Below, in pieces: positions 1,618 to 21,906 of a stretch of DNA of 44,262 nt. The stretch comes from Limisalsivibrio acetivorans (GTDB taxonomy: Bacteria; Chrysiogenota; Deferribacteres; Deferribacterales; Geovibrionaceae). The notes under the pieces were generated by a model, which searched no databases, had not been told where the DNA came from, and worked only from the letters and a program-made list of their open reading frames with translations. Both the position numbers and the translations under genes were made by a program. How positions within the stretch are numbered: the first letter of the stretch is position 1; each line of letters opens with the position of its first letter. The stretch covers positions 360,668 to 404,929 of the forward strand of contig NZ_ATWF01000001.1 in NCBI RefSeq assembly GCF_000421105.1, in the 5' to 3' direction.

Positions 1618-3024
1618 TTACTGTTGTTCAGAAAGCTCCTTTCGGTTTAGGAGTCGTTTGTTGAGCGCCTGTCTTGATATCCCCAGAAGCCTTGCCGCCT
1701 CCTTCTGGTTGTTGTTCGAGACCTTCATTGCTTCATCAATAATATGCTCTGTCATCTCAGACAGTGTGGGAAATTTACCGAAGAATGTACGGATGTCGTT
1801 AGGGTTGGTGTCCTTGCTCTTTGTGACCGTATGGTGGGTATTCATCCTTGAACGAAGGATCTCCGCAGGGAATTTTCCGCCAGTTGAGAAAGCAACAGCA
1901 TCAACCACAAGAGCCTTGAGCTCACGGACATTTCCGGGGAATGAGTAAGAGGAGAGGATATTGATAATCTCCTCATCAATACCGGGCTTAGGTTTATCCA
2001 TGGCTTCGGCGGACTGCTCTGCAAAGTACTCCGTAAGAAGGCGTATATCCTCCGGTCTTTCACGCAGAGGGGGGACTATAATAAGGTGTGTGCTGAGACG
2101 GAAGTACAGGTCCTTCCTCAGTCCCGACTCTGAGCCGACAATGTTATGCAGCTCCTTGTTTGCCGCAGCAACAATCCTCGCCTTCGACCTCTTGGGTTTA
2201 TCAGAGCCAAGGGGGAGGTACTTCTCCTCCTGAATCAGACGGAGGAGCTTGAGCTGACATTGTTCGTTCAGATCACCTATCTCATCGAGGAAGAGCGTAC
2301 CGCCTGCGGCCCTTTCCACAAGACCCTGCCGCTCCCTGTCCGCACCGGTGTAAGCCCCCTTTGTATGGCCGAAAAGCGTATCGGAGAACATCGTATCATC
2401 CAGCCCGGAGAGATCCACAGGAATAAAATCACCTTCAAGGCCACTGGAATTGTGTATGGCTCTTGCGATCATCTCTTTTCCCGAACCTGTCTCCCCAAGC
2501 ACCAGCACAGGCTGGCCAGAGTTTGATATAGCCTCGATATAGCTGAATATGGATGACATCTTCGGGTTTGCTGTTAGCACATGGGAGAACGCTTCCGGCC
2601 TTTTTATCTCCTCCCTGAATGCCTGGTACTTCAGGGAGGAAACCTCATATCTTAGGTTAAGCAGTTCGCCGGCGTTCTTTATGGATGACTGCAGCCTCTT
2701 TATGTCGAGGGGCTTAACCAAGTAGTCGTATGCACCCACTCGCAGGCAGTCCACTGCGGAATCGATATCTGAGTTTGCTGTGATGATGATTACCGGTATG
2801 TTGGGATATTCCTTAACAATGCTGTTCAGGAGATCCTTTCCTGTAATATGGGGCATGTTAAGATCAAGCAGAACTATGGAATAGGGGTTGTCTGAGAGGG
2901 TATCGTGCAGATTTCTGCCATCCTGTACAGGGATCACGTTTTCGTAGCCGGCTGAACGTAAAACCAGTTCACAGGCTTCTAAAATACTCTTTTCATCATC
3001 AACGATTATAATCGTTGGCTTCAT
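1618..3024 (-). CDS. NtrC-family sigma-54-dependent response regulator
   Basis: 468 residues with the classical three-part layout. The receiver domain (1-120) has acidic residues DDE at 9-11, phospho-acceptor Asp54 in VLLDLNMP and the Lys in YLVKP. The AAA+ domain (about 145-375) has Walker A GETGSGKE, the sigma-54-contacting loop as GAYTGA (Phe replaced by Tyr, a common variant) and Walker B LFLDEIGDL. A Fis-type helix-turn-helix ends the protein (EAARLLGISRQALNKRL). It should activate sigma-54 promoters when phosphorylated. It is transcribed divergently from a three-gene operon that has a strong sigma-54 promoter, which makes that operon a natural first target (inference). No sensor kinase is adjacent. 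The ribosome site is GAGG about 11 bp before the ATG. Confidence 0.93.
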   Translation of the reverse strand: MKPTIIIVDDEKSILEACELVLRSAGYENVIPVQDGRNLHDTLSDNPYSIVLLDLNMPHITGKDLLNSIVKEYPNIPVIIITANSDIDSAVDCLRVGAYDYLVKPLDIKRLQSSIKNAGELLNLRYEVSSLKYQAFREEIKRPEAFSHVLTANPKMSSIFSYIEAISNSGQPVLVLGETGSGKEMIARAIHNSSGLEGDFIPVDLSGLDDTMFSDTLFGHTKGAYTGADRERQGLVERAAGGTLFLDEIGDLNEQCQLKLLRLIQEEKYLPLGSDKPKRSKARIVAAANKELHNIVGSESGLRKDLYFRLSTHLIIVPPLRERPEDIRLLTEYFAEQSAEAMDKPKPGIDEEIINILSSYSFPGNVRELKALVVDAVAFSTGGKFPAEILRSRMNTHHTVTKSKDTNPNDIRTFFGKFPTLSEMTEHIIDEAMKVSNNNQKEAARLLGISRQALNKRLLNRKELSEQQ

Positions 3025-3158: not shown

Positions 3159-3216
3159 TGCAACAATTATTGTAGGGCTGCAACAAAAGTTGCATCATAA
3201 ATGTATAAAAGTTGCA
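3159..3216. repeat. Cluster of TGCAAC/GTTGCA half-sites, candidate enhancer (UAS) for the 3309 sigma-54 promoter
   Basis: Four copies of one hexamer occur within 58 bp: TGCAAC at 3159-3164 and 3179-3184, and its complement GTTGCA at 3189-3194 and 3211-3216. The central pair forms the 16-bp palindrome TGCAACAAAAGTTGCA (3179-3194). The cluster lies about 95-150 bp upstream of the -24/-12 element at 3309, the usual distance for binding sites of NtrC-type activators, and between that promoter and the divergent NtrC-type gene. Binding by that regulator is inference. Confidence 0.6.
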
Positions 3217-3308: not shown

Positions 3309-3324
3309 TGGCACAGTGATTGCA
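3309..3324 (+). promoter_or_regulatory. Sigma-54 (-24/-12) promoter
   Basis: TGGCAC-N5-TTGCA is an essentially perfect RpoN consensus, with GG (3310-3311) and GC (3322-3323) separated by the required 10 bp. Transcription would start near 3335, giving a leader of about 60 nt before the first small gene at 3397. The rest of the 372-bp interval 3025-3396 is AT-rich and holds the TGCAAC cluster. Confidence 0.9.
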
Positions 3325-3396
3325 TGTTTATTAAGCACAATCGCCGGATTGTAAGATAAGGGGGGAGCCCTTTTTAGTTTAGGAGAATTAAAAGAC

Positions 3397-3567
3397 ATGC
3401 AGAGAAACGAGAACTTCAGAATTATTGATTCAGGAAGATCAAGGACAGAATCCGAACTTGAGAGAATAAGACGTTATGAGAACTACAAAACCGGTTTATC
3501 CGGGCATGATGTGGAGCTTGATGACTATCTTGGTAAAATAAGCAGAATTAAGAAATATTTAATATAG
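3397..3567 (+). CDS. Small protein of unknown function (56 aa), first gene behind a sigma-54 promoter
   Basis: The ATG at 3397 opens 56 codons ending in TAG at 3565-3567. The product is short, highly charged and predicted helical (SELERIRRYENYKTGLSGHD in the middle, a basic end ISRIKKYLI). It has no signal peptide or membrane segment and I recognise no family. An AGGAG ribosome site lies about 11 bp upstream. It is the first reading frame after the sigma-54 promoter at 3309 and is followed by two further small genes on the same strand. A regulatory or adaptor role is conceivable, but nothing in the sequence proves one. The short length leaves some doubt that it is translated. Confidence 0.6.
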   Translation: MQRNENFRIIDSGRSRTESELERIRRYENYKTGLSGHDVELDDYLGKISRIKKYLI

Positions 3568-3646
3568 GTTCGCCTGCCGGACTGATTTTATTCAGGGGGG
3601 AAGTTCCGTTTTTTCAGTTTCCGGTGAAGAGCCGAGAGGTAGATAT

Positions 3647-3910
3647 ATGAAGAAGGGTGAAAGTATTTGGGAAAACAGGATTGCCATGTACTTCCAGAAC
3701 AGACCAGGGTCTAGTACCGATGATTTCGTTCAACAGCTAAGTGACAGCGGTCTTATGACATTCATGGAGGACTGCTCTGGGATCATCATGAAGGAAGTTA
3801 GCATTAGCCGGAGTGAAAGAAGAGAGTTTGAGGATATTGAGGACCTTATCAGGAATGCACTGAGAAGGTTTGTTGATGAGTTTATCAGTAAGCGTCAGAA
3901 TGCAGTTTAG
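3647..3910 (+). CDS. Small protein of unknown function (87 aa)
   Basis: 87 residues, mostly helical in appearance, with no signal peptide or membrane segment. The middle (SGLMTFMEDCSGIIMKEV) and the acidic-then-basic C-terminus (FEDIEDLIRNALRRFVDEFI) look like a small helical bundle or dimer. I recognise no family. An AGAGG ribosome site precedes the ATG by about 8 bp. It is the second gene of the sigma-54-driven trio, 79 bp after the first and 17 bp before the third, so co-transcription is likely. Function unknown. Confidence 0.72.
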   Translation: MKKGESIWENRIAMYFQNRPGSSTDDFVQQLSDSGLMTFMEDCSGIIMKEVSISRSERREFEDIEDLIRNALRRFVDEFISKRQNAV

Positions 3911-3927
3911 GCTTGGAGCAAAGGTAC

Positions 3928-4161
3928 ATGACAACATTGAAAACAACTGATGTGGCTGAGCTCATTATTAACGAAAGGTCGCCCGGTGATTTTGAGCACA
4001 CTGTCAGAGAGTTCTTCCACAGAACGCCCATTGCGGAGATAATCGAATACGTCAAAGAGAACTCAATACCACCTCAAAATCTTAAAAGGTATTATTACAG
4101 GCATATTAAAAACGGTGCGCCTAATGCAACTCTGGAGCAGTTTCTTTCATACTTCGGGTAA
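3928..4161 (+). CDS. Small protein of unknown function (77 aa)
   Basis: The reading frame is open from a TTG at 3913, but the ATG at 3928 is the better start because GGAG/AAGG lies just upstream of it. The 77-residue product is soluble and helical, with a basic, Tyr-rich patch (LKRYYYRHIKNG) and a C-terminal LEQFLSYFG. The family is not recognised. It is the third gene of the sigma-54-driven set and ends 19 bp from the convergent antiporter gene. I see no clear terminator in that short gap. A shared role with the two preceding small proteins is inferred only from operon structure. Confidence 0.7.
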   Translation: MTTLKTTDVAELIINERSPGDFEHTVREFFHRTPIAEIIEYVKENSIPPQNLKRYYYRHIKNGAPNATLEQFLSYFG

Positions 4162-4180: not shown

Positions 4181-5200
4181 TCAGGTTAGAAAGAATAGAA
4201 AAGCATTGCCAAGTATGTAAACAGCGAATATGAGACTGCTCTCCCAGCCTATCTTGCCGAGCCCCTGCTCCTCTCTGTGCAGCAGGCCCATTATCAAAAC
4301 ACCTGTCATAAGTATGGTCATGGCGATCATGTATACCTGGTTCATCGTAACCGCCTGCAGTATGCTCCCCTCAAGGTAGGCGAAATCCGCAAACGCCACG
4401 AACATTACGTCGAATGTATTTCCTCCGATAATATTCCCCACGGCCATGGTCAATGCGCCATAACGAACGGCCGCCACAGATACAATAAGCTCTGGAAGGG
4501 AAGTGGCAACTGCTGTGAACAGGGCTCCGACCAACGATTCGGAAAGGCCGGTCTTGTCTGCGATGATGATCCCCGATTCTGCAACACTGTAACCTGCAGT
4601 ACCCACTACAGCGGCAAGCAGAACGAATTTTATGATCAGGGCTTTCATGCTGAGTTTGCGAATATTCTTAATATCAGGCTCATCCTCAACCGTTTCCCTA
4701 GTAAGCCTGGGGCGCCACATAGGTTCGTCCTTAGCCTTTGAAACCAGCTTTGAGCCTCCAATGTAGAAGATGATAATCAGGAGGGAGAACGGATGGAAAT
4801 GGAAGATCTCCGCCGATGGTCCCGCTATGCCCGCCATAACCAGAGAGAGCAGGGCGATGAGCATTGTGCCCTGCATCAGGTTTGGAAATGATGCTGCGGC
4901 GTGCTCAAGGTTGGTCTTTCTGTATGATATATCAGCAATGGAGAGAAAGAATGTCTGGGCGGCGATCCCGCCGATTGCGTTGCTTACGGCAAGCTCGGGA
5001 TGGTTTGAGTATGCGGCGGTTACGGAGGTTATGATTCCGGGAAGAGATGTTGTTCCGCCGAGAAGAACGGCACCAAATACTGCTTCCCCCATACCTGTTA
5101 CATCCGCAAGCTCATCGGATGTTTTCGCAAGGTAAGTACCGCTTACTGCAATAACCGCTGTTGATATGATAAAGACAGCCGAAGCTGTTAGGATGTCCAT
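4181..5200 (-). CDS. CaCA-superfamily (YrbG-like) Na+/Ca2+-type antiporter with atypical alpha-1 repeat
   Basis: 339 residues, almost entirely membrane-embedded, about 10 segments in two inverted halves around a central charged loop near residues 145-180 (SKAKDEPMWRPRLTRE). The two alpha repeats that define the family are visible: alpha-1 in the first half (GAVLLGGTTSLPGIITS) and alpha-2 in the second (LFTAVATSLPELIVS, followed by GNIIGGNTFDVMF). In alpha-1 the usual SLPE is SLPG, so one of the two ion-coordinating glutamates of characterised exchangers is missing. The cation handled is therefore uncertain. The ribosome site AGAGG precedes the ATG. It is convergent with the sigma-54 operon and divergent from the MoaE-like gene. 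Confidence 0.83.
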   Translation of the reverse strand: MDILTASAVFIISTAVIAVSGTYLAKTSDELADVTGMGEAVFGAVLLGGTTSLPGIITSVTAAYSNHPELAVSNAIGGIAAQTFFLSIADISYRKTNLEHAAASFPNLMQGTMLIALLSLVMAGIAGPSAEIFHFHPFSLLIIIFYIGGSKLVSKAKDEPMWRPRLTRETVEDEPDIKNIRKLSMKALIIKFVLLAAVVGTAGYSVAESGIIIADKTGLSESLVGALFTAVATSLPELIVSVAAVRYGALTMAVGNIIGGNTFDVMFVAFADFAYLEGSILQAVTMNQVYMIAMTILMTGVLIMGLLHREEQGLGKIGWESSLIFAVYILGNAFLFFLT

Positions 5201-5875: not shown

Positions 5876-5949
5876 CGGGACGTGGCGCAGCTTGGTAGCG
5901 TACACCCTTGGGGTGGGTGTGGTCGCTGGTTCAAATCCAGTCGTCCCGA
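5876..5949 (+). tRNA. tRNA-Pro (anticodon GGG)
   Basis: All four arms can be folded by eye. The acceptor CGGGACG pairs with CGTCCCG, with discriminator A at 5949. The D stem GCGC pairs with GCGT. The anticodon stem CACCC/GGGTG encloses the loop TTGGGGT, so positions 34-36 are GGG (proline codons CCC/CCU) with the G37 expected for tRNA-Pro. The T arm is GCTGG TTCAAAT CCAGT. The 3' CCA is not encoded. It has its own promoter (5821) and terminator (5970), so it is a single-gene transcription unit. Confidence 0.95.
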
Positions 5950-6473: not shown

Positions 6474-7490
6474 ATGCCCACTGCTACTGCTGGTGTTGAA
6501 AACATCGCAGTGAGACTGCTGAAGAACGCAGAGCTTATATTACGACTTATTGTGGTGAAAAAGATCTTCTCATCGGATAGTGCCTTCCATCGAAAAGAGA
6601 TGGGGAGGGCGGATATCGATTCTGTTGTGGAAGAGATTGTGAATATTGCCGATAATATCGAGGTTAAGGCTCAGGAGCTTGAGAGCGACTTTGTAGAGTG
6701 GATCCACGCAGGAAACGCTAAGCTGCGCAGAGGTGAAAGCTCTCTGATGCGTGTTCTTGAGGTCGAAGAGCCCGAACCAGAGCCCTTTGCATACTACAAC
6801 GCCTCCCTTTCACATATGAAGTCGCTAATAACCTTCTGTAAGGCGGAGCTCCTCGTTGCCCTTGATGATGACGATAGAAGCCACCTGCGCAATCTTATGG
6901 ATGTCTGTAGAAATATAAGAGCATCACTCAGCCGTATATCAAAATACCGCTACGATGTTGAATGTGTACATACTGATATCGTCGAAGGTACCGAGGAGTC
7001 TGTGGAAGGGCTATACAAGTCCCTTGAGTACATGTTCCGTATCGCCGTTCAGGATATCGCAACAGAGTTTACCCAAAGACGCATTCGCAACAATAGAGAG
7101 TTTGCGAGAAACTACACCTCGGACTATATCCATCTCAGCGGCGGACGAACGGTTGAAACGGCGAACCTTCTCTGGCTTTTCCGTTTTATCTTCTGGGAGG
7201 GGGAGAAGAAGCGCCCCTCTAAATATCCAGTAAACCATATCCTCTCCATTGGTACGACCGAGTATATGGACTTTCGCAAAGAAGTTGACAACGTGTTAAA
7301 GAGGGTGGTAGGCACACAGGGGGATATGTTTGGAAGGTTTAATAGCCTTTTTGCCCAGGTTATGCAGGGTAGAACACTAAAAAGGCTTGATCAGGAAGTT
7401 GTTACCGCCCTTGATGATATATTCTTTGACATGTGGGCAATTGCTGCAGCAAAGACAATTCTCATGGAAAAAGGGGAGGAAAACGCCTGA
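6474..7490 (+). CDS. Helical protein of unknown function (338 aa)
   Basis: A strong AAGGAGG ribosome site precedes the ATG. The 338-residue product has no signal peptide or long hydrophobic segment and looks all-helical, with a Glu/Pro stretch near residues 97-105 (EVEEPEPEPF) that may link two domains. The second half contains aromatic segments (ANLLWLFRFIFWEGEKKRP; DDIFFDMWAIAAAKTILM). I recognise no catalytic motif or family. It ends 98 bp before the PocR-PAS kinase, whose own sigma-54 promoter sits in that gap, so the two are probably separate units. The function cannot be stated. Confidence 0.8.
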   Translation: MPTATAGVENIAVRLLKNAELILRLIVVKKIFSSDSAFHRKEMGRADIDSVVEEIVNIADNIEVKAQELESDFVEWIHAGNAKLRRGESSLMRVLEVEEPEPEPFAYYNASLSHMKSLITFCKAELLVALDDDDRSHLRNLMDVCRNIRASLSRISKYRYDVECVHTDIVEGTEESVEGLYKSLEYMFRIAVQDIATEFTQRRIRNNREFARNYTSDYIHLSGGRTVETANLLWLFRFIFWEGEKKRPSKYPVNHILSIGTTEYMDFRKEVDNVLKRVVGTQGDMFGRFNSLFAQVMQGRTLKRLDQEVVTALDDIFFDMWAIAAAKTILMEKGEENA

Positions 7491-7588: not shown

Positions 7589-10078
7589 ATGAGCGGAGTG
7601 CGTAGACTTTCATTAATTGCCGACTCTTCCAACCTATCCAAGATATTCGACCTATACTTGGAAACCACTGATATTACAGCGTGTATTGCAGATGCAGAAT
7701 GTTCGGCAAGCTTTGTCTGTTCTAAACAGAGGGATGTGTGCATGCACTTCCATAAGTCTTACGAAAAGAGCCATGAGGCTTGTAACAGACTTGGGTCAGA
7801 AATGGCGGATGAGCTTGACGGCAACAAGGAATATGCCGTCATAACATGCGACAACGGCATGAACCATGCCGCGGCAAGTCTTATGGTTGGTGGAGTGAAA
7901 GCTGCTGTAATACTAACCGGACAGGTTTTCACCCAAAAGCCTGATTTGGATTATTTTGCTAATCAGGCAGAGAGATACGGCTATGATAAGGATGAATATT
8001 TAGCAGAGATCCAGCGTGTACCGGTGGTGGATGAAGATTATCTGATTAACAGCGTCCGTTACCTTAAACTTCAGTGCGAGAATATCCTTGAGCTCGGTGC
8101 AAATAAACACGAGCTTGAGAAGGAGAGGGAGCGTTTCAGTCTCGCCGTTGAATCCACAAGGGACGGCGTTTTCGACTATGACATTGAGAATAACTCATTC
8201 CATGTTTCCCCTCGGTTCTCTTACATGCTTGGTTATCCGGAGGGCTATTTTACGGATAAGGACTCCGTTGTTAATTTGCTCCACCCGGACGATAAGGATA
8301 GAGTTTTACAAAGTTTCAGCGAATGTCTGGAAAGCGGTTACGAATTCTATGAAGAGAAGTACAGGCTCAAGAAAGGAAGCGGTGGATACATAAACATACT
8401 CTCCCGAGGCAGTATCGTGCGGGATGAGAATGGAAAAGCTGTAAGGATGGTTGGCTTCCATTCGGATATATCCGATGACGTCAGCGCCGCTGAAAAGCTC
8501 ATGCGTGAGAAGGAAAAATGGGCTAATCTGTTCTATAAGCACAGCTCAGTTATGCTCCTGATAAACCCTGTTACTGGTGAGATAACAGATGCTAACGAAG
8601 CGGCGGCATCCTTCTATGGCTATTCCCGTGAAGAGCTTATGAGGATGAGTATAACATCCCTTAACACACTTCCGCCGGAGGTTGTAAGAGCAAGACGCCG
8701 TGAGGCGGAGATCAGGAAAACTAACCGCTTCGTATTCCCCCACAGGCTTGCTGACGGCACGATAAAAACAGTGGAGGTGTTCTCATCACCCATAATAGAA
8801 GGTGGAGAGACACTCCTGTTCTCAGTTATTCAGGACATAACAGATAAGGTGAAGGCGGAGCGTGACCTGGCTGAGGTCAACAAGGAGCTTGAGAACCGTG
8901 TTGAGAATGAGCTGATGAGCAGAATCAAGAGCGAGATCAAATACAGCTATCTCTTCAACGCCATGCATGACGGTGTACTCCTGAACTACGTTGTGGACGG
9001 TAAGACGGGGGCTATCTTCGAGGCGAACGACTCCGCCTGTAAGATGCTTGGATACAGGAAGGATGAGCTGTATCTTATACATCCGGAAAAGCTTCTATCA
9101 CCTGCATTTGCTGTAAATGCACAGGACCACATAAACAACCTTGTAAAAAATGGTTACGCCTATGCAACAGCAGAGCTTATCAGGAAAGACGGCTCAATCC
9201 TCAATGTAGAATGGAATGCAACACTATTCACCTATGAAGGCAAGCGCACTTCCTGCATCATATTTCGGGATATTGAGGACAAGATCGCCGCAGAGCAGCG
9301 CAGGATACAGAATGAGCAGCTCCTCGTGCAGCAGTCCAAGCTGGCGGCTATGGTTGAGATGATGGGAGCCATCGCCCACCAGTGGAGACAGCCACTCAAC
9401 GCCCTGAGCCTTCTAATACAGGTTCTGGATGACGATTACGACTCCGGCGACATCGACAAGGGGTATCTGGAAGAGTTCATAGACACAACAACCGGCATCA
9501 TTAACCACATGTCCTACACCATCGATGACTTTAAAGACTTCTTCAAGCCCTCCAGAGAGAAGAAGCATTTTGATATAGTCACTGCGGTCAAAGATGTTAT
9601 CGGGCTTATATATGCCCAGTTGGAGGCTAATGGTATAAGCTTTCGTTTCAGCTGTCAGTGTGGTGTGAAAAGCTTCGAGGGGATAAACGAGATTACTAAA
9701 AACACCTGCGAGGAGAACCTTCTGAAGGTTTATGGCTATCCTAGCGAGCTTAAGCAGGTTGTTCTAAATCTCATACAGAATGCGAATGATGCAATGCTTG
9801 AGAGAAGAAAGGGTTACAGAAAACTAAAGCCTTTTATAGATCTTGAAATTAAACAGGCTGGCGAATGGATACTTATCAGCATTACAGACAATGGCGGCGG
9901 TATACCGGAGGAGATATTAGACCGTGTATTTGAGCCTTACTACACAACAAAGCTGGCCTCCGGCACCGGTATAGGCCTTCACATGTCCAGAATGATTATC
10001 GAGGAGCATATGAACGGTATGATTGAGCTTAAGAACAACAATGACGGTCTGACAGCTGTGGTTAAGCTCCCCTCCTAG
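7589..10078 (+). CDS. PocR-PAS-PAS-PAS sensor histidine kinase
   Basis: 829 residues, no membrane segment, so a cytosolic sensor. Order: an N-terminal PocR-type sensory domain (about 15-165; Cys/His-rich, CSKQRDVCMHFH, and GGVKAAVILTGQVF typical of the family); a PAS domain (about 185-300, SPRFSYMLGY); a second PAS (about 310-420, ANEAAASFYGYSREEL); a short coiled coil; a third PAS (about 450-570, EANDSACKMLGYRKDEL); then the kinase core. The phospho-acceptor is His597 in IAHQWRQPLN. ATP-binding boxes follow: NLIQNANDAM, DNGGGIPEE, GTGIGLHMS. HQWRQPLN marks the HPK4-like class often paired with NtrC-type regulators. No regulator is in the same operon. Expression is probably sigma-54 dependent (7544). 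Its stop overlaps the convergent FapA stop at the shared CTAG (10075-10078). Confidence 0.92.
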   Translation: MSGVRRLSLIADSSNLSKIFDLYLETTDITACIADAECSASFVCSKQRDVCMHFHKSYEKSHEACNRLGSEMADELDGNKEYAVITCDNGMNHAAASLMVGGVKAAVILTGQVFTQKPDLDYFANQAERYGYDKDEYLAEIQRVPVVDEDYLINSVRYLKLQCENILELGANKHELEKERERFSLAVESTRDGVFDYDIENNSFHVSPRFSYMLGYPEGYFTDKDSVVNLLHPDDKDRVLQSFSECLESGYEFYEEKYRLKKGSGGYINILSRGSIVRDENGKAVRMVGFHSDISDDVSAAEKLMREKEKWANLFYKHSSVMLLINPVTGEITDANEAAASFYGYSREELMRMSITSLNTLPPEVVRARRREAEIRKTNRFVFPHRLADGTIKTVEVFSSPIIEGGETLLFSVIQDITDKVKAERDLAEVNKELENRVENELMSRIKSEIKYSYLFNAMHDGVLLNYVVDGKTGAIFEANDSACKMLGYRKDELYLIHPEKLLSPAFAVNAQDHINNLVKNGYAYATAELIRKDGSILNVEWNATLFTYEGKRTSCIIFRDIEDKIAAEQRRIQNEQLLVQQSKLAAMVEMMGAIAHQWRQPLNALSLLIQVLDDDYDSGDIDKGYLEEFIDTTTGIINHMSYTIDDFKDFFKPSREKKHFDIVTAVKDVIGLIYAQLEANGISFRFSCQCGVKSFEGINEITKNTCEENLLKVYGYPSELKQVVLNLIQNANDAMLERRKGYRKLKPFIDLEIKQAGEWILISITDNGGGIPEEILDRVFEPYYTTKLASGTGIGLHMSRMIIEEHMNGMIELKNNNDGLTAVVKLPS

Positions 10079-11522: not shown

Positions 11523-12938
11523 CTAATAATCAGCTTCCTCTCCCTTGATTCTGGAGAGATGCCTGTATATTGTCTGTCTGTTTATTCCCAGTATAAAAGC
11601 GGCCTGGCTTATGTTGCCTTCGGTTTCTTCAAGAGCTGTTTTTATTGCGTAGTCTGTAATCTCCTTAAGGGTTGGGAATCTTCCGGAATAGCTGATGCTG
11701 AGGCCGCTGAATATATCATAGCCGGGCTCGTCCTCAACCTCGATGCCGTTATTTCGGAAATGCTCCCGCACCATCCTTTCATCGATCCTCTCTGTTCTCA
11801 GCTTAGCCGTGAGATCGAAGAGGATCCCCTCCAGCTCACGAACATTGCCTGGATAGTCGTATTTGGTCAACTCCAGCAGTGCTTCGGGGGTTATCTCCGG
11901 CTGTTCAACACCGTATATCTGTGACGCTTCGCTAAGACAATGCTCTGCGATGGGGAATATATCCTCACGGCGTTCCCTGAGCGGGGGAATCTTGACATGA
12001 TGGAATGAAAGCCTGTAGAAAAGATCCTTCCGGTATTCCCCTTCGTCGGCAAGCTTGCGGATGTCTCTATTAGTTGCGGCGATGATCTTTGTATTGGTTT
12101 TCATCACCTTGTCCGAACCGAGGGGGTAATAGGTTCCATCCTGTAGCAGCCTGAGAAGCTTAACCTGCGAACCTGTCTCAAGATCCCCTATCTCATCGAG
12201 GAACAGTATACCGTTTTCGGCTGTTTTGATAAGACCTTCCCGTTTGGAATCAGCGTTTGTGAATGCACCTCTGGTGTGTCCGAAGAGGGTGTCGGAAAAC
12301 ACTGTATCATCCAGACCGGAAACGTTCACTTTCACGAGTTCACCGCTGAAACCGCTCATCTCATAGATGAGATCCGCCATTAGCTCTTTCCCTGTTCCCG
12401 TTTCTCCTGTTATGAGTATCGGCACTGGTGCGGCTGCAATATTCTTGATATACCGGAAGATTCTCAGCATTTTCCGGCTGTTTGTGATAAACCCCGATTC
12501 CCTTGCACCAGGTTCCTCGGGACGTTCCATATAGTCTGTTTTGAGCCTGTTAAGCTCAACGGTCATAAAGAAATGTTCCGATGCCTTGCGTACAGAAGTA
12601 ATCAGCCTGTTGGTTCCAGAAGATTTTGTCACATAGTCGAAGGCGCCCCCTTTCATGGCAGAAACCACAGCCTCACTCCCTTCATTTGCCGTAACAATGA
12701 TTACGGGTATATCGGGGAAGGTGTAGTTTATCTCTGTCAGGAGTTCCTCTCCACTTATGTGTGGCATGTTCAGATCCAGGAGGATAACACTGTATCTCTC
12801 CTCACTGAGCCTTCCAAGAACCTCTCTACTGTCTGCAACAGCTTCAATGGCTCCAATTCCGTTTTCCTTTAGCAGCCTCTCGGAGAGTTTAAGGAATTCG
12901 TGGTCATCATCCACGATCATGATTTTATAATTAGTCAT
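11523..12938 (-). CDS. NtrC-family sigma-54-dependent response regulator (GAFTNA loop)
   Basis: 471 residues from the ATG at 12938. The frame is open back to a TTG at 12974, but that triplet coincides with a good -35 hexamer. Receiver domain 1-120 with DDD at 10-12, Asp55 in ILLDLNMP and the Lys after YVT. AAA+ domain about 150-375 with GETGTGKE, LFLDEIGDL and the sigma-54 loop as GAFTNA rather than GAFTGA. The Fis-type C-terminal helix-turn-helix is QAAFILGINRQTIYRHL. Domain order and size match the regulator at 1618-3024, but the two are clearly diverged. It is in an operon with fapA (11-bp gap) and divergent from the sigma-54 promoter at 13189. No Shine-Dalgarno is visible before either start. 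The kinase partner is unknown. Confidence 0.9.
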   Translation of the reverse strand: MTNYKIMIVDDDHEFLKLSERLLKENGIGAIEAVADSREVLGRLSEERYSVILLDLNMPHISGEELLTEINYTFPDIPVIIVTANEGSEAVVSAMKGGAFDYVTKSSGTNRLITSVRKASEHFFMTVELNRLKTDYMERPEEPGARESGFITNSRKMLRIFRYIKNIAAAPVPILITGETGTGKELMADLIYEMSGFSGELVKVNVSGLDDTVFSDTLFGHTRGAFTNADSKREGLIKTAENGILFLDEIGDLETGSQVKLLRLLQDGTYYPLGSDKVMKTNTKIIAATNRDIRKLADEGEYRKDLFYRLSFHHVKIPPLRERREDIFPIAEHCLSEASQIYGVEQPEITPEALLELTKYDYPGNVRELEGILFDLTAKLRTERIDERMVREHFRNNGIEVEDEPGYDIFSGLSISYSGRFPTLKEITDYAIKTALEETEGNISQAAFILGINRQTIYRHLSRIKGEEADY

Positions 12939-12945
12939 AATAAAA

Positions 12946-12974
12946 ATATTATTCACATAGTCTAACTTTTTCAA
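12946..12974 (-). promoter_or_regulatory. Sigma-70-type promoter placed directly before the regulator ATG (possible leaderless mRNA)
   Basis: On the minus strand TTGAAA (12974-12969), a 17-bp spacer and TAATAT (12951-12946) sit with the ATG at 12938, only 7 bp after the -10. Transcription would begin at or near the A of the start codon, which would explain the missing ribosome site. Confidence 0.5.
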
Positions 12975-13100
12975 GTAAATGCGTTGTATTAGGGTAATGT
13001 ATTTTTTTGTTACGGGTAATTACTAGGTAAAAAAACAAAGTGTATTGATTTTGTTCACTTTTAAAGGCTATATTTAGTCATATACATTAGACACTAACGT

Positions 13101-13120
13101 TTCGAAGAGAATTATTCGAA
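13101..13120. promoter_or_regulatory. TTCGAA inverted repeat, candidate activator site for the 13189 promoter
   Basis: TTCGAA at 13101-13106 and 13115-13120, separated by 8 bp, lies about 70-90 bp upstream of the sigma-54 element. The hexamer is itself palindromic, so the site could also be read as two adjacent sites. Role inferred from position only. Confidence 0.35.
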
Positions 13121-13188
13121 CCCAAATCCCTCATGTGCGGGAGAATCTGAACAAGCTTCATCTTTATACACCTCGGCGGCTGGCCATA

Positions 13189-13204
13189 TGGCATAGGCGT
13201 TGCA
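13189..13204 (+). promoter_or_regulatory. Sigma-54 (-24/-12) promoter of the receiver-like gene
   Basis: TGGCAT-N5-TTGCA, with GG (13190-13191) and GC (13202-13203) 10 bp apart. Only one base departs from consensus. The start near 13215 makes a GTG start at 13221 unlikely and favours the ATG at 13254. The rest of the 315-bp interval 12939-13253 is AT-rich. Confidence 0.85.
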
Positions 13205-13253
13205 ATAGAGATGCGAGCAAGTGAACATTCAGTATGTAATAGAGGGTGAAATT

Positions 13254-13634
13254 ATGAACACAAGATACAATATAAAATGCTCCAGAGTTTATTTCATGGC
13301 GGATGGAAGCGTTGCGGCAACACCTTTCTTTAAAGCGCTTAATACATCGGTGGATAAGCTTTATATAGGAATGGACAAGGTTTACGGACTCCAGCTTATG
13401 GAGGATGGATACATAGATATGATGCTCCTTGATATAAGCATCGAGAACAACGATGCTCCGGAGGTGGACAGCTTTATCGGTGCGGTTAAGAGCAGGAGCG
13501 GCGATTTTCCTGTGATAGTAATCTCAGAACCGGGTGATGTAGCGGATAATATTGTCGAAGCGGACTTCGTTATGGTTAAGCCCGTCATCGGCGACAGCAT
13601 ATTCCAGGTACTGGATATATGCGCTAACTGCTAG
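13254..13634 (+). CDS. Degenerate receiver-like protein (126 aa)
   Basis: The start is ATG 13254, with AGAGGGTG 7-10 bp upstream. An in-frame GTG at 13221 lies almost at the predicted transcription start. The product has the strand pattern of a response-regulator receiver: MMLLDISIENN at the phospho-acceptor strand, PVIVIS at strand 4 and FVMVKPV with the strand-5 Lys-Pro. The N-terminal acidic pair that binds Mg2+ is missing (YFMADGS there instead), so phosphorylation is doubtful. It may be a pseudo-receiver that signals by binding. No output domain is present. A sigma-54 promoter drives it, and its stop overlaps the convergent receiver-phosphatase gene at the shared CTAG (13631-13634). Confidence 0.72.
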   Translation: MNTRYNIKCSRVYFMADGSVAATPFFKALNTSVDKLYIGMDKVYGLQLMEDGYIDMMLLDISIENNDAPEVDSFIGAVKSRSGDFPVIVISEPGDVADNIVEADFVMVKPVIGDSIFQVLDICANC

Positions 13635-14810: not shown

Positions 14811-14965
14811 GAGCAAAATTAACTGGAATTCATTACCAACAGTATGGGTATATTTTCCATACTTATTCGAAAACCGGTTCATATTCACTTTCAAAAAGGT
14901 GCAACCTGTTGTTTATTACTCTTTGTGTTCGTGCCATAATAGAGAAAAATACCGGAGGTTTCCCT

Positions 14966-17900
14966 GTGAGAAATAAATTTACCTTATTGATGCTTCTTCT
15001 GTTTTCAACATTGCTCCTCAGCGCCTGCGGAGGCGGCGGGGGCGGCGGAGGCGGCGGAAGTGATTTTGCCGTTTACGGTGTCGCAGCCGAAGGGGAGGCC
15101 ATCAACGGTACTGTCTATCTCACCGATTCCAACGGTGTACGTTCCGATGCTGTCTCCATAGAGTCCGACGGCAGTTTCAGCTTCAACACATCAACACTTC
15201 GGGCACCTTATCTCCTGAAGGCGGTATCCTCCGAAAGCGGTATGGAATATGCTGCAATCGCCGAGGGGAGAGGGCGGTACAATATTACACCCTTCAGCCA
15301 TCTTGCCTTCTTGCTTGCAGGTGAAGGGAATGTTACCCTCGCACAGGCTTGGGATAATACAACTTTGTTCGAGAATACGCTTCTCAGCTATGAAACTGCG
15401 AAAAGTGATGTGAACAGCATGTTCTCCACACCCTATGATAGCTATAAAACAGCTGTCAGCCCCTTCACAGGGAATCTTTACGTGGGGAGCAATCTGGATA
15501 TGATTCTCGATGATATGTATTTCCGGTTTAATACATCGGATGCAGAGATAAGCTCAAAGATTTCCGGTCATCCTCTCATAGATGTTCAGTACTCATCGGG
15601 CGGTTCGCCTAGTCTTTATTTCGACAATAATACCTTCGATACAATAAACGATAATTCCTACCTCACATCCATATCCCTTAGCCCTGCTGAGGCAACCCTT
15701 CGTCCTGGAGATTCTCGCACCTTTGCCGCAGTGGGTTCCTATGTGGACGGCTCGGTTCATAATATCGACAGGGTGGCCTCATGGAGCATTGACAATTCAT
15801 CGGTGGCATCTGTGGATACGGGTATAGTGACAGGCCTTTCCACTGGCTCTGCTCTGCTTACGGCGGCACTTGGCTCTGTGAGTAAAACCGCGGATATTAC
15901 TGTAAGTGAAGGGGGTGATTACCTCATCGGTCTCAGCGTTACCCCGGTCAATCCCTCTGTCCCCTACGGCAATACAAAACAGCTTACCGCCACGGGCATC
16001 TATTACGACTCAGAAACCCAGGGTTTCTCCAAAACGATGGATGTTACAAAGAGTGCGGACTGGGCAAGCTCCGCTGAATCGGTTGCGAAGGTAGGGAACG
16101 ACAACGGCACTAAGGGTCTTGTGACCACGATAGCCTCTGGAACCGCTACTGTCACAGCATCCCTTGAGGGGTATTCATCAAGCACAAATATAAACGTGTC
16201 AAACTCCGAACTGCAGTACATAAACATATCCCCCTCTGCGCCCCAGATAGGCCCCGGCGGGAGCGTTCAGTTCACAGCCACCGGTATTTACACAGATTCT
16301 TCAACACAGGATATAACCGGTTCTGTTATCTGGATCTCGGACAACTCGAGCGTTGCAGAGATAAGCAACGATAACGGCACAGCCGGACTTGCAGAGGCCG
16401 GTGACAATACAGGAACCACAGGTATTGTGGCCACAAAAGGTGGTGTTACCGCGATGACAACCTTAAAGGTGGCACCTGTTCAGATAACGGGCATTGGCGT
16501 TACACCTGCGGTTAAAACCCTTGCCGCAGGGAATACACAGCAGATGACCGCTACCGGTACATACAACGACAACTCCACCTCCGATGTTACCTCCGATGCT
16601 GTCTGGTCCACAAGCACCCCCTCCGTAGCCACCGTTGATACGGACGGAGTTCTCACTGCAGTTGGCTCAGGTACTGCAACGGTAACGGCAATCTTCGGCG
16701 GTGTAAGCGGAACGGCACAGGTAACAGTAAAGGCGGCGGAGCTTGATAAGATAGAGGTAACCCCAGCATCCCCGGAGGTTCCCCTCGGTCTTGAGAAGCA
16801 GATGACCGCCACAGGTATATACAGTGACGGCTCAAAGCAGAACCTGACATCAGTGGTTACGTGGCAGTCTTCGGACACATCGGTGGGCGTGATAAGCAAC
16901 GCCGTGGACAGCAAGGGGCTGTTCAGTACGCTCACATCCGGCACATCGGATATTACAGCCGCTCTGGCAGGTGTTTCCAGTGCTCCAGTAACAGTTACGG
17001 TAACCTCCGCCCAGATCAAGGAGATACAGCTTACCCCAGAGGGGTCATCCGTTCCCCTTGGTGTGGACCAGCAGTTCACCACTACGGCTGTTTTCACAGA
17101 CAACACGACCCAAAACATGACCGAATCGTGCACATGGTATATAACGGATCCCTATGCGGCCGTAAGCAACGCCTCCGGAACAAAGGGCTTCGCTAAAACC
17201 ATAGGGGAGGGCACCACAATGGTGCGGGCGGTTTATGGTGAGTTTTCCGATGAAACCAGCTTCACCATAACCCCTGCAGAGCTGACCCAGCTTCAAGTGA
17301 GCCCCGTAACCCCCTCTGTGGCTCTTGGCGGCTCCAAACAGATGAACGCAGTGGGTATATATACGGACAACACGAACGTTGATGTAACATCACAGGCTAC
17401 ATGGGCTTCTTCGGATGGAACAGTGGCAAGCATAAGTAATGCCGGCGGCTCCGAAGGACTTGCCGTATCCCTTGCCACAGGAACCTCAACATTGTGTGCA
17501 ACCATGGATAACATTACCGACAGTACGGTGATGAGTGTAACCCCCGTCTCGCTTCAGCATATCACTGTTACCCCTGCGAACCAGTCTCTGCCGCTGGGTA
17601 ACGACCAGCAGTATACGGCTACGGGTATATACTCCGATCTTACCACTGAGGATCTCACAGCATCTGTTACATGGTCGGCTGATAATGCTAGCGTCGCTTC
17701 CATAAGCAATGCCGGGGGTAGCGAGGGTCTTGCATCATCCGCAGGAACCGGGAATGCTGTTATCACAGCGGATTACAACAGCGTAACAGGAACGGCGAAG
17801 CTCACAGTCACACCCGCTACGCTGACATCGATCGTTGTTAACCCCATAAACGCATCCATAGCGCAGGGGAATACCCAGCAATATACAGCCACGGGCTACT

Positions 17901-19162
17901 ACAGCGACAGCACCAGCCAGAACCTTACTAACATCGTTGCATGGACCTCGGATAACGCCGCTGTGGCCTCCATAAGCAACGCCGTTGGCTCACAGGGTAT
18001 AGCAAGCTCCGTTGGTACTGGCTCGGCTAATATAACCGCCTCCTACGATAACGTTACAAGAACCGTTCCGCTTACTGTAACTGCGGCACAGCTCGAGAGC
18101 ATAGACATAGCACCGGCGAACCCCTCTATAGTTAATGGTACAAACCAGCAGTTTACCGCAACAGGCAATTACAGCGACGGTTCCACCCAGGATGTCACGA
18201 CTCAGGTTACGTGGCTCTCCAGCGATGTGGGTGTGGCCTCCATAAGCAACGCTGGTGGCAGCGAAGGTCTTGCAACATCCGCCGGAACTGGTACAACCAC
18301 CATACTCGCAGCTCTAGACGGCAAAGCAGGCTCCACGAACCTTACCGTAACAGCCGCAACGCTCCAGAGCATAGCCATAACACCTGCGGATCCCTCCATA
18401 CCTCTGGGCACTACCCAGCAGTTCACCGCTACGGGTACATACAGCGACACCACCACACAGGATATAACCACGCAGGTTACTTGGCAGTCCGATGATGATA
18501 CAGTGGCCGTTGTAAGCAATGCGGGTGGAAGTGAAGGACTCACGACCTCCATGGCTCAGGGCACTGCCAATATTACTGCAGATATGGGAGGAATAACCGG
18601 AACAACCTCCATAACGCTTACAGCTCCCCAGCTCCAGAGCGTAAGCGTTCTCCCTGCGAACACATCCATAGCCGTTGGGGATACCCTGCAGTACACGGCC
18701 ATAGGTAACTATTCAGGCGGCGGCATTTCGGATATCACCGATCAGGCAACATGGGTTTCCACCACAGCCTCTGTGGCAAGCGTTGGAAACACCCAGGGGG
18801 TTGATAAGGGGCTGGCAACCGGCATCGTGGCGGGAAGCACCAACATCGAGGCTACTCTGGACGGGATTACAGGTACAACACCCCTTCAGGTAACCGGACT
18901 TCCGCTCATCGATATAACCGTAACCCCTGCGGATCCAAGCATACTTACCGGTGCTAACATCCAGTTTACCGCAACCGGTACTTACAGCGATTTCTCCACC
19001 GAGGATATATCCAACAGCTGTACGTGGGTGATGGATAATACCGATATCGCCACAGTCGATGCAACAGGGCTAGCGACGGGTGATGCTGTCAATACGGGAA
19101 CAACTAACGTAAGGGCTCAGAAATCCGGAGTGGAGGGCTCAACAAGCATTACGGTTAACTAA
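14966..19162 (+). CDS. Large lipoprotein with 13 tandem Ig-like (BIG2) domains
   Basis: 1398 residues from the GTG at 14966 (GGAGG 7 bp upstream). The frame is open from a TTG at 14909 but that would displace the signal peptide. A lipoprotein signal is evident: MRNK, a hydrophobic core, then lipobox LSAC with Cys21, followed by ten glycines as a flexible tether. After an N-terminal domain of about 210 residues come 13 repeats of about 90 residues, each beginning like LxxIxVTPAxxSxxxGxxQQ(F/Y)TATGxYSD and containing VTWxSxxxxVAxISNAxGxxGLA, i.e. BIG2 (invasin/intimin-like) folds. Such proteins usually extend from the cell surface for adhesion or matrix binding. It is probably anchored in the outer membrane. 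A single-gene unit with a strong terminator at 19198. Confidence 0.9.
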   Translation: MRNKFTLLMLLLFSTLLLSACGGGGGGGGGGSDFAVYGVAAEGEAINGTVYLTDSNGVRSDAVSIESDGSFSFNTSTLRAPYLLKAVSSESGMEYAAIAEGRGRYNITPFSHLAFLLAGEGNVTLAQAWDNTTLFENTLLSYETAKSDVNSMFSTPYDSYKTAVSPFTGNLYVGSNLDMILDDMYFRFNTSDAEISSKISGHPLIDVQYSSGGSPSLYFDNNTFDTINDNSYLTSISLSPAEATLRPGDSRTFAAVGSYVDGSVHNIDRVASWSIDNSSVASVDTGIVTGLSTGSALLTAALGSVSKTADITVSEGGDYLIGLSVTPVNPSVPYGNTKQLTATGIYYDSETQGFSKTMDVTKSADWASSAESVAKVGNDNGTKGLVTTIASGTATVTASLEGYSSSTNINVSNSELQYINISPSAPQIGPGGSVQFTATGIYTDSSTQDITGSVIWISDNSSVAEISNDNGTAGLAEAGDNTGTTGIVATKGGVTAMTTLKVAPVQITGIGVTPAVKTLAAGNTQQMTATGTYNDNSTSDVTSDAVWSTSTPSVATVDTDGVLTAVGSGTATVTAIFGGVSGTAQVTVKAAELDKIEVTPASPEVPLGLEKQMTATGIYSDGSKQNLTSVVTWQSSDTSVGVISNAVDSKGLFSTLTSGTSDITAALAGVSSAPVTVTVTSAQIKEIQLTPEGSSVPLGVDQQFTTTAVFTDNTTQNMTESCTWYITDPYAAVSNASGTKGFAKTIGEGTTMVRAVYGEFSDETSFTITPAELTQLQVSPVTPSVALGGSKQMNAVGIYTDNTNVDVTSQATWASSDGTVASISNAGGSEGLAVSLATGTSTLCATMDNITDSTVMSVTPVSLQHITVTPANQSLPLGNDQQYTATGIYSDLTTEDLTASVTWSADNASVASISNAGGSEGLASSAGTGNAVITADYNSVTGTAKLTVTPATLTSIVVNPINASIAQGNTQQYTATGYYSDSTSQNLTNIVAWTSDNAAVASISNAVGSQGIASSVGTGSANITASYDNVTRTVPLTVTAAQLESIDIAPANPSIVNGTNQQFTATGNYSDGSTQDVTTQVTWLSSDVGVASISNAGGSEGLATSAGTGTTTILAALDGKAGSTNLTVTAATLQSIAITPADPSIPLGTTQQFTATGTYSDTTTQDITTQVTWQSDDDTVAVVSNAGGSEGLTTSMAQGTANITADMGGITGTTSITLTAPQLQSVSVLPANTSIAVGDTLQYTAIGNYSGGGISDITDQATWVSTTASVASVGNTQGVDKGLATGIVAGSTNIEATLDGITGTTPLQVTGLPLIDITVTPADPSILTGANIQFTATGTYSDFSTEDISNSCTWVMDNTDIATVDATGLATGDAVNTGTTNVRAQKSGVEGSTSITVN
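15662..19159 (+). repeat. 13 tandem repeats inside the lipoprotein gene
   Basis: Repeat units of about 260-300 bp start with codons for LTSISLSP, LIGLSVTP, LQYINISP, ITGIGVTP, LDKIEVTP, IKEIQLTP, LTQLQVSP, LQHITVTP, LTSIVVNP, LESIDIAP, LQSIAITP, LQSVSVLP and LIDITVTP. Units 7-11 are closest to each other at DNA level and share near-identical runs such as TCCATAAGCAA(C/T)GC. Confidence 0.88.
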
Positions 19163-19264: not shown

Positions 19265-21790
19265 TTACTCTGAATCAGCAGCAGGAAAGCGCAGTGTAAT
19301 AACTGCACCCCTTTCACTGTTCTCTGCTTTCATTCGGCCATTCATATGTTTTTCCACAATTATTCTGGACATGAAAAGACCTATCCCCGTTCCTTCACCC
19401 TCCCCCTTGGTGGTGAAATAGGGGTCGAAAATCATGGACATTATATTCTCTGGGATACCGCCGCCGTTGTCAGAAAAGCTTACAATAATATCTCCGTTAT
19501 CTCTGGATACGGCAATAACTATCTCTCCAACACGGATATCACCCTTCTTTCTGTACTTGGTTATCGCTTCAATGCTGTTGTGAAGGATGTTTATCACAAC
19601 CTGCTTGAACTCGCCCGGTATGCCCCGTACCTTAAAGTCGCTCTCCTCATCTGTTTTGGATGTGCGTCTGTAGGGTACAGCACCGATGCCGCTGTCTATG
19701 AGTAGCTTTACATCCTTGCTCTCCATCTGTGCATAAACAAGGGAGGAGGACTCGTATATATGCTTGAGAATATCAAGGTCTGCCGGTGAGTCGTTAGTTA
19801 TGTAAAAGTTTCTGAAGTCATCGATGGTTTTCGACATATACATAATAAGATGCATACAGCTTTCTGTCATGCTGTCTATGTACTCCCTGTCCAGCTCGCC
19901 GAGTTCGTAGGAGTCCTCAAGATCCTGAATATAAAGACCGAGGGCGTTTATCGGCTGTCTCCACTGGTGGGCTATGGCGCTTATCATCTGCCCTATGGAT
20001 GCGAACTTCGACTGCTCAAAGAGGAGGGATTCATTCTTCCTGCGCTTCTCCGTTTCCACCTCTACTGTTTTTTCAAGGTTTCTGTTAAGCATTTCCAGTT
20101 CCCTTGTTTTACTCCTGAGCTCGTTCTCCATGTTCTTTTCCTGGGTGAGGTCCTCGAGGATACCCAGAAGCATATAAGCCTTTCCTTCGTTGTCAAATAT
20201 CGGGACCTTAGTGTTACGAACAGTGATTAACCCTTCCGGCGTCTTGATCTCGACAATATTACGGGTGACAATACCCTCCTGGATGGTTGCTATATCCGAT
20301 TCTGTGGCAATCTCTTGATCTTTGTAGTCAGCAAAGGATGTTCTCGATGTACTGTCCATTATCTCAGAGATGGTTTTACCCTTTGCTTCTGAAACTGATA
20401 CGCCGAAGATTTTTTCGGCCATCCTGTTCCAGAGTACTATCCTGAAACCATCGGAAGGATCCTTTGTGAAAAGACCCACCGGCAGATTCTCAATAATGGA
20501 GGTTAAAAAGATCTCCTTCCTTACAGCCTCATTCTCTGCCGACTTCTTCATTTCGATTATTTCATGGAGTGACTCTCCGATATTGATAAACTCGTTGTAT
20601 TTAAGGTTAACTGAATCGGTATCTCCATCCTCGATGCTCGTTCGAAACAGAACCATGAGGCTTCCAAGCTCTTTGTTAAGCCGGTTTGTGAAAAACAGTC
20701 CTGCGGTGGCCCCCGCTATAAGGGAGAATACGAAGATGATCCCGATGAAGACGAGCTGCTTCTGGATACTCTCTTCAAGTTCCTGACGCTTCACTGCGAT
20801 AATATCATCGATCTGGTCTATGTTTACCCCTGTCCCTATGTACCATTCCCAGTCCTCAATGCCTTGGGCGTAGCTGATTTTCGGCCTTGGCTTATCGGAG
20901 TTGAAGCGGGGGAGTACATAATCCACAAATCCTCCACCCTCACGGGCCGCCTTTATAAGCTCCTGAACGATCTTCTTTCCGTTTATATCTGTGACGTTGT
21001 ACATGTTTTTGCCCTTGGCAGGGCCCGAAAGGCTGAGCCCGTCCCATGTGGCGGCGAAAACATAACCATCATCCTCATAACGTATGGATGAAATGCGGTC
21101 CAGGACACTTTCCTGAAGATCTTTTTCCTGATCATCGAGGTATTCCCCTGTGCCAATGTACCAGTTAAAGGGCTTGAACCCTTTAACATAGGTGAGTTTT
21201 GGGTATATCATCTCGCCGTTGCCGGCGGGCTTTCGCCAGTGACCCTTAACAAACCCCTCCCCACGGTTTTTTACAAGTCTGATCTCTTTTCTGATCACGA
21301 AGTTGCCGAGGGCATCAACGAGGTTTATTATGTTCTCGTTTTCATATTCAGGTGCTATGGGGTACAGGATCTCGGTTCCGTTCATACTGCCGATGAATAT
21401 ATACCCTCTGCCGTCACTGAAACGTACAGGCCGCAGAGCCTCCTTGATGATCCCTTTTATTTCAACACTGCTGTGGGTTTCCTTATGGGTGTTGTATAGT
21501 GAGAGTGCGATGGCGTGGGCCTTATTTACCTCTTCCCTAAGCCTTTCTCTAAGCTCTACCTCTGAATTGGAGCGGACATAGGCGATATACTCCGCAACAC
21601 GTTTAACCTCGAATTTTATACGGGCTTTGCGTTCTTCTATGTATTCTCTTCGCAGGTTTTTAGCCTCATCCTCAAAGCGGCTGTATTCGGAGGAGATCCA
21701 GAAATAGGCTATGGGGATAACAGATATAAGAGCTGTTATCAGCATTGATAAATAAAAAAGACTACTCAGGCTCTTTAATCTGTTGGACAT
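19265..21790 (-). CDS. Membrane sensor histidine kinase with two Cache domains and PAS
   Basis: 841 residues from the ATG at 21790 (AAGGGAAA upstream). The frame extends to 21871 but the extra residues precede the natural membrane anchor. Order: transmembrane segment about 12-33; two periplasmic Cache_2-like domains (about 45-230 and 235-330) with repeated signatures GRGYIFIGSMNGTEILYP / FNWYIGTGEYLDDQ and DGYVFAATWDGLSL / WEWYIGTGVNIDQ; transmembrane segment about 346-368; a linker; PAS (about 425-550, ENLPVGLFTKDP); coiled coil; kinase core with His608 in IAHQWRQPIN; ATP boxes NILHNSIEAI, DNGGGIPENI, GEGTGIGLFMS. Cache_2 domains usually bind small organic acids or amino acids. Same kinase class as the gene at 7589. 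No partner regulator adjacent. Confidence 0.92.
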   Translation of the reverse strand: MSNRLKSLSSLFYLSMLITALISVIPIAYFWISSEYSRFEDEAKNLRREYIEERKARIKFEVKRVAEYIAYVRSNSEVELRERLREEVNKAHAIALSLYNTHKETHSSVEIKGIIKEALRPVRFSDGRGYIFIGSMNGTEILYPIAPEYENENIINLVDALGNFVIRKEIRLVKNRGEGFVKGHWRKPAGNGEMIYPKLTYVKGFKPFNWYIGTGEYLDDQEKDLQESVLDRISSIRYEDDGYVFAATWDGLSLSGPAKGKNMYNVTDINGKKIVQELIKAAREGGGFVDYVLPRFNSDKPRPKISYAQGIEDWEWYIGTGVNIDQIDDIIAVKRQELEESIQKQLVFIGIIFVFSLIAGATAGLFFTNRLNKELGSLMVLFRTSIEDGDTDSVNLKYNEFINIGESLHEIIEMKKSAENEAVRKEIFLTSIIENLPVGLFTKDPSDGFRIVLWNRMAEKIFGVSVSEAKGKTISEIMDSTSRTSFADYKDQEIATESDIATIQEGIVTRNIVEIKTPEGLITVRNTKVPIFDNEGKAYMLLGILEDLTQEKNMENELRSKTRELEMLNRNLEKTVEVETEKRRKNESLLFEQSKFASIGQMISAIAHQWRQPINALGLYIQDLEDSYELGELDREYIDSMTESCMHLIMYMSKTIDDFRNFYITNDSPADLDILKHIYESSSLVYAQMESKDVKLLIDSGIGAVPYRRTSKTDEESDFKVRGIPGEFKQVVINILHNSIEAITKYRKKGDIRVGEIVIAVSRDNGDIIVSFSDNGGGIPENIMSMIFDPYFTTKGEGEGTGIGLFMSRIIVEKHMNGRMKAENSERGAVITLRFPAADSE

Positions 21791-21906
21791 AATTTTCCCT
21801 TGTGTTTTTATTATTTTGTACCATATGAATGTTTTTTTCAATACTTCATAGATAGGGTTTGGATAAAGCAAGTTGCAATGGAGAAAAACATGCTATAGAT
21901 TTACCC

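Follow-up and report, generated by a model that had tools for sequence, protein, structure and literature searches.

A putative sigma-54-driven operon of three small orphan proteins beside an NtrC-type regulator gene in Limisalsivibrio acetivorans

The window analyzed here, a stretch of 44,262 nucleotides from Limisalsivibrio acetivorans (C1:360668-404929), contains a gene for an NtrC-type response regulator (RR1) that is transcribed divergently from three short open reading frames, P1, P2, and P3 (the trio), with a sigma-54 promoter and a set of hexamer sites between them (Table 1). A preliminary description of this DNA had placed a dedicated activator gene at the position of RR1, and the Pfam matches of its product to a receiver, to Sigma54_activat, and to a Fis HTH agree with an activator at this place; in the translation, the Asp, Thr, and Lys of the receiver are kept and both VLLDLNM and GAYTGA can be read. 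The same description gave genes of 56, 77, and 87 codons, sizes that stand, although the actual order along the DNA is 56, 87, and 77. An exchanger gene on the opposite strand, which ends at 4181, closes the operon.

Table 1. Features of the regulator and trio locus, in window coordinates
Feature	Position	Strand	Description
RR1	1618..3024	-	NtrC-type response regulator, 468 aa; proposed activator; receiver, AAA+ with GAYTGA loop, Fis-type HTH
TGCAAC half-site	3159..3164	+	Precedes the TGCAAC arm of the perfect dyad by 20 bp
Perfect dyad TGCAAC-AAAA-GTTGCA (TGCAACAAAAGTTGCA)	3179..3194	.	Proposed enhancer; center about 148 bp upstream of the predicted transcription start
GTTGCA half-site	3211..3216	+	Follows the GTTGCA arm of the dyad by 22 bp
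Sigma-54 promoter TGGCAC-N5-TTGCA	3309..3324	+	Predicted transcription start near 3335
Leader motif ATAAGGGGGGAGCCC	3356..3370	+	Same form in the leader of the second target
P1	3397..3567	+	56 aa, basic (pI 9.2), no known family
P2	3647..3910	+	87 aa, acidic (pI 4.9), predicted all-helical, no known family
P3	3928..4161	+	77 aa from ATG, five short helices predicted, no known family

The promoter ahead of the trio, described earlier as near-perfect, proves to be an exact match: TGGCACAGTGATTGCA (TGGCAC-AGTGA-TTGCA, plus strand, 3309-3324) has the sigma-54 core with no mismatches and is the sole exact match to that core within the window. Genome-wide, the pattern TGGCAYN5TTGCW occurs at 18 sites, compared with six for a reversed control and about 5.6 expected from base composition, so that roughly two-thirds of these sites should be real. 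RpoN is encoded in the genome (PF04552, E 5.6e-59), and genes assigned by eye as PII-like and oxidoreductase-like stand behind other sigma-54 sites. Taken together, the GG and GC elements, the presence of rpoN, and the activator-like sites farther upstream are the features by which a sigma-54 promoter is recognized from sequence, and a control architecture of the known, textbook type is well supported on this basis.

In the intergenic region between RR1 and the trio, four TGCAAC/GTTGCA hexamers fall within 60 bp (3159-3216), a clustering found in none of 20,000 simulated intergenic sequences. Arms of the same type are 20 and 22 bp apart, or about two helical turns, which places them near one face of the helix. 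The perfect dyad within this cluster occurs twice in the 2.97-Mb genome, against 0.17 copies expected, and the other copy (C1:609730) is found 190 bp upstream of one of the genome's 18 sigma-54 sites, TGGCACAGTTGTTGCT at C1:609920, a placement with a chance probability of about 0.002. The system had been proposed to be self-contained, a view that this second promoter displaces: as the perfect dyad is common to two sigma-54 promoters, the regulon probably has two targets. The leaders of both targets also carry ATAAGG-N1-3-GAGCCC, with the spacer GGG in the trio leader and A in that of the second target (L061:7964). A search covering the fetched loci and the window finds this motif in only these two of the 18 sigma-54 leaders examined, with 0.03 matches expected within the window. 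The shared dyad, the placement of its second copy, and the shared leader motif are good sequence evidence that the trio promoter and the promoter at C1:609920 answer to one activator.

The second target is a lone, receiver-like gene whose reading frame runs from 8016 or 8034 to 8417 in the fetched locus L061 (L061:8034-8414 corresponds to C1:610033-610413) and whose match to Pfam Response_reg, at E 0.0025, lies below the curated cut-off. It aligns with genes of two sister-genus genomes at 33 and 29% identity, and these relatives are syntenic, lying between genes named by eye as an XRE-cupin-like regulator and MutS2-like. Where both syntenic relatives carry the phospho-acceptor Asp (VVMD or IVMD), the second target has Glu (VVME), a residue that mimics phosphorylation at this position in some receivers.

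RR1 is probably the activator that uses the sites upstream of the trio and, through the same dyad, it probably also switches on the receiver-like gene at C1:609920. Its nearest relatives within the family, 52-53% identical, are flanked by genes for a kinase and an aldehyde dehydrogenase, and the TGCAAC-N4-GTTGCA dyad was not found beside these sister-genus regulators in the fetched loci. Thus, the assignment of the dyad to RR1 rests on proximity, and a paralogous activator could bind it. Behind two of the sister-genus kinase-regulator pairs, a sigma-54 site of the type TGGCATG-N-TTATTGCA (L015:1492 and L016:1495) is followed by an aldehyde dehydrogenase-like gene. The several NtrC-type paralogues in the genome, together with the missing dyad beside the closest relatives of RR1, lend some weight to the alternative that another enhancer-binding protein, such as RR2 (11523-12974) or one encoded at an unlinked locus, drives the trio promoter and that the divergent arrangement is incidental. 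However, the enhancer cluster is situated in the region between RR1 and the trio, and RR2 has its own adjoining sigma-54 site (13189) without a perfect dyad as well as a loop that reads GAFTNA in place of the usual GAFTGA, so that an activator other than RR1 is considered unlikely.

If RR1 is the activator, the kinase that addresses it would be encoded at some distance, as no kinase gene adjoins RR1. Two kinase genes (7589-10078 and 19265-21871) are found in the same 20 kb; compared with the kinases beside the sister-genus relatives of RR1, they are 28-34% identical and neither is a clear orthologue. Other signaling genes are also present in the window. A cluster of genes for kinases, receivers, and a SpoIIE-type phosphatase includes one (14909-19162) whose 1417-aa product matches Big_2 domains twelve times, and a 338-aa protein without a Pfam match is encoded at 6474-7490, shortly before the gene for a PocR-PAS histidine kinase.

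The products of the trio had been described as belonging to no recognized family, and this continues to hold, as Pfam, NCBIfam, PHROGs, and PADLOC give nothing above chance or cut-off. Likewise, no match to flagellar or phage proteins, named earlier as evidence that would count against the proposed operon, was found for P1, P2, or P3. Several weak candidates were considered and rejected as chance similarities. These include, for P1, DUF6257 (16.3 bits against a cut-off of 26.2) and MutS-like and phage exonuclease genes (E 0.2-0.9); for P2, DUF7293, DUF1515, phrog_11003, the PADLOC model CARF1 (13.1 bits), and a stretch of a gene identified by eye as an LptE-like lipoprotein (L003, E 0.007); and for P3, a protein beside a sigma-factor-like gene (L092, E 0.006 per genome, with 51 genomes searched). 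An identification of P1 as FlgM was set aside since a separate FlgM-like gene is present in the genome (L093:2527-2829). P1 is very hydrophilic, P3 is near neutral, and none of the three is hydrophobic overall. Modeled from single sequences, P2 and P3 come out entirely helical with moderate confidence (mean pLDDT 67-68), and a fold search with these models gave no solved-fold match with E under 1. The order of helices is alike in the two models, but the sequence similarity of P2 and P3 is no better than that of shuffles, and a paralogous relationship between them was rejected. The three products are small and hydrophilic and would be soluble proteins, predicted to be helical in the case of P2 and P3.

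Conservation of the trio with its divergent activator in related genomes had been suggested as a check of the operon, and here the expectation fails, as no homologue of the trio is found in 11 genomes of the same family. The reading as a conserved operon is thereby lost; the operon is lineage-specific, which does not disprove it as an operon. With the own genome included in each count, no homologue beyond the protein itself and chance matches was found for P2 in 60 genomes, for P3 in 51 genomes of the same phylum, or for P1, for which the search was narrower, in 12 genomes of the family. Pattern scans for P2 and P3 across the GTDB genomes of 84,980 species, a method that finds close relatives only, gave none, neither protein has a homologue in the rest of the phylum as searched, and searches of IMG/VR, phages, and plasmids with the trio were likewise negative. 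This leaves an operon of orphan proteins that is driven by sigma-54 and specific to its lineage, with the trio detected so far in one bacterium only.

The neighborhood bears on how such an operon may have come to this position. In three sister-genus genomes, orthologues of the HD-GYP gene are 61-63% identical and much of the left-hand neighborhood is kept, but genes other than RR1, the trio, or the exchanger follow HD-GYP, so that these were either inserted here or lost there. Insertion would be compatible with cargo that arrived recently, perhaps on a mobile element or phage not yet described, that came under a host sigma-54 activator and that has a selfish role such as toxin-antitoxin function, anti-phage function, or element maintenance. 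Beyond the difference in synteny, which loss in the relatives would explain equally well, a tRNA-Pro gene at 5876 and an exchanger for which a search at E 1e-30 likewise gave no family match are in keeping with acquisition. Nevertheless, no integrase or transposase was noticed among the nearby open reading frames, and phages, plasmids, IMG/VR, and PADLOC give nothing beyond chance; an origin as mobile cargo is therefore given a low probability.

That the trio encodes proteins is suggested by the arrangement of its reading frames. Open reading frames of at least 50 aa that begin with ATG tile 669 nt of the plus strand, an extent reached by none of 3000 dinucleotide shuffles, only two of which hold three such frames. 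For P1, P2, and P3, codon scores are highest in the annotated frame among the three plus-strand frames (z 2.4-3.4), though below those of ordinary and neighboring genes, and a purine-rich, ribosome-binding-like site lies upstream of each ATG. Near the leader motifs (window 3356-3370 and L061:7964), hairpins with GGA in the loop are possible, and a CsrA-like gene is present at L093:9874-10101. Control of the leaders by CsrA through such loops is possible but was not retained, since the fold is no better than that of shuffles. The lack of protein homologues in anything searched, the weak codon scores, and the leader motif common to both targets might point to a real promoter whose main product is RNA, either a regulatory transcript of about 850 nt or the leader of it, with the three frames marginal or non-coding, but the tiling of one strand by frames with ribosome-binding sites, the absence of an Rfam match, and folding of the leader and intergenic sequences no better than that of shuffles (z -0.9 and 0.4) make this very unlikely.

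A lineage-specific sigma-54 operon under two-component control is, on balance, the best explanation of the locus as a whole. A histidine kinase encoded elsewhere would phosphorylate RR1, which we infer would then bind the hexamer cluster at 3159-3216, reach the promoter by DNA looping, and use ATP to open RNA polymerase-sigma-54 at 3309-3324. A single mRNA would carry P1, P2, and P3, and the proteins would be produced only in the presence of the signal, most likely acting as modulators or adaptors of a signaling or stress response. The control of the trio is quite likely and is more secure than the role of its products. Taken by itself, the step that makes P1, P2, and P3 small conditional modulators or adaptors is tentative; it is suggested by their small size, their solubility, and their co-control with a receiver-like protein and, as the operon has no gene of known function, depends on protein size and on the signaling nature of the second target. 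More speculative still, and improbable, is that the trio represents a new, lineage-born module in which small helical proteins bind and redirect a two-component pathway, are co-induced through sigma-54 with a receiver-like protein that has undergone an Asp to Glu change, and come under an additional level of control through the leader motif common to both mRNAs.

Sigma-54 promoters require a dedicated, ATP-driven activator, and for this reason such a promoter before genes without detectable relatives hints that orphan genes of this kind have a function and are used under particular conditions. In the most ordinary case, the locus is a further example of an operon of orphan genes with textbook control. 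It also offers a testable regulon of two promoters for an uncharacterized activator in the little-studied phylum Deferribacterota.

Comparison with other systems illustrates which elements of this arrangement are shared and which are particular to it. Within the window itself, a module at 11523-13634 likewise has an NtrC-type regulator, RR2, divergent from a sigma-54 site (TGGCATAGGCGTTGCA, 13189) with a small gene downstream, but this gene is single, aligns loosely with receivers without a Pfam match, and has no dyad in common with the trio. The kinase-regulator-aldehyde dehydrogenase loci of the sister genera (L015-L019) have in common with the trio locus the regulator itself, at the identity given above, and, in two of them, a sigma-54 site before the target gene; they differ in their adjacent kinase, in their target, and in lacking the dyad in the fetched loci. 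In a studied regulome, activator genes are often co-localized with their sigma-54 targets (PMC4641369). The enhancer-binding protein regulons of Desulfovibrio vulgaris (PMC4641369) share with the locus described here a response regulator with AAA+ and Fis HTH domains, upstream dyads, a -24/-12 promoter, and an adjacent target. In contrast to the NtrC-family regulators with an adjacent sigma-54 operon in that work, the regulator of the present locus has no adjoining kinase gene, its proposed target operon consists of three small orphan proteins only, and its probable second, unlinked target is receiver-like.
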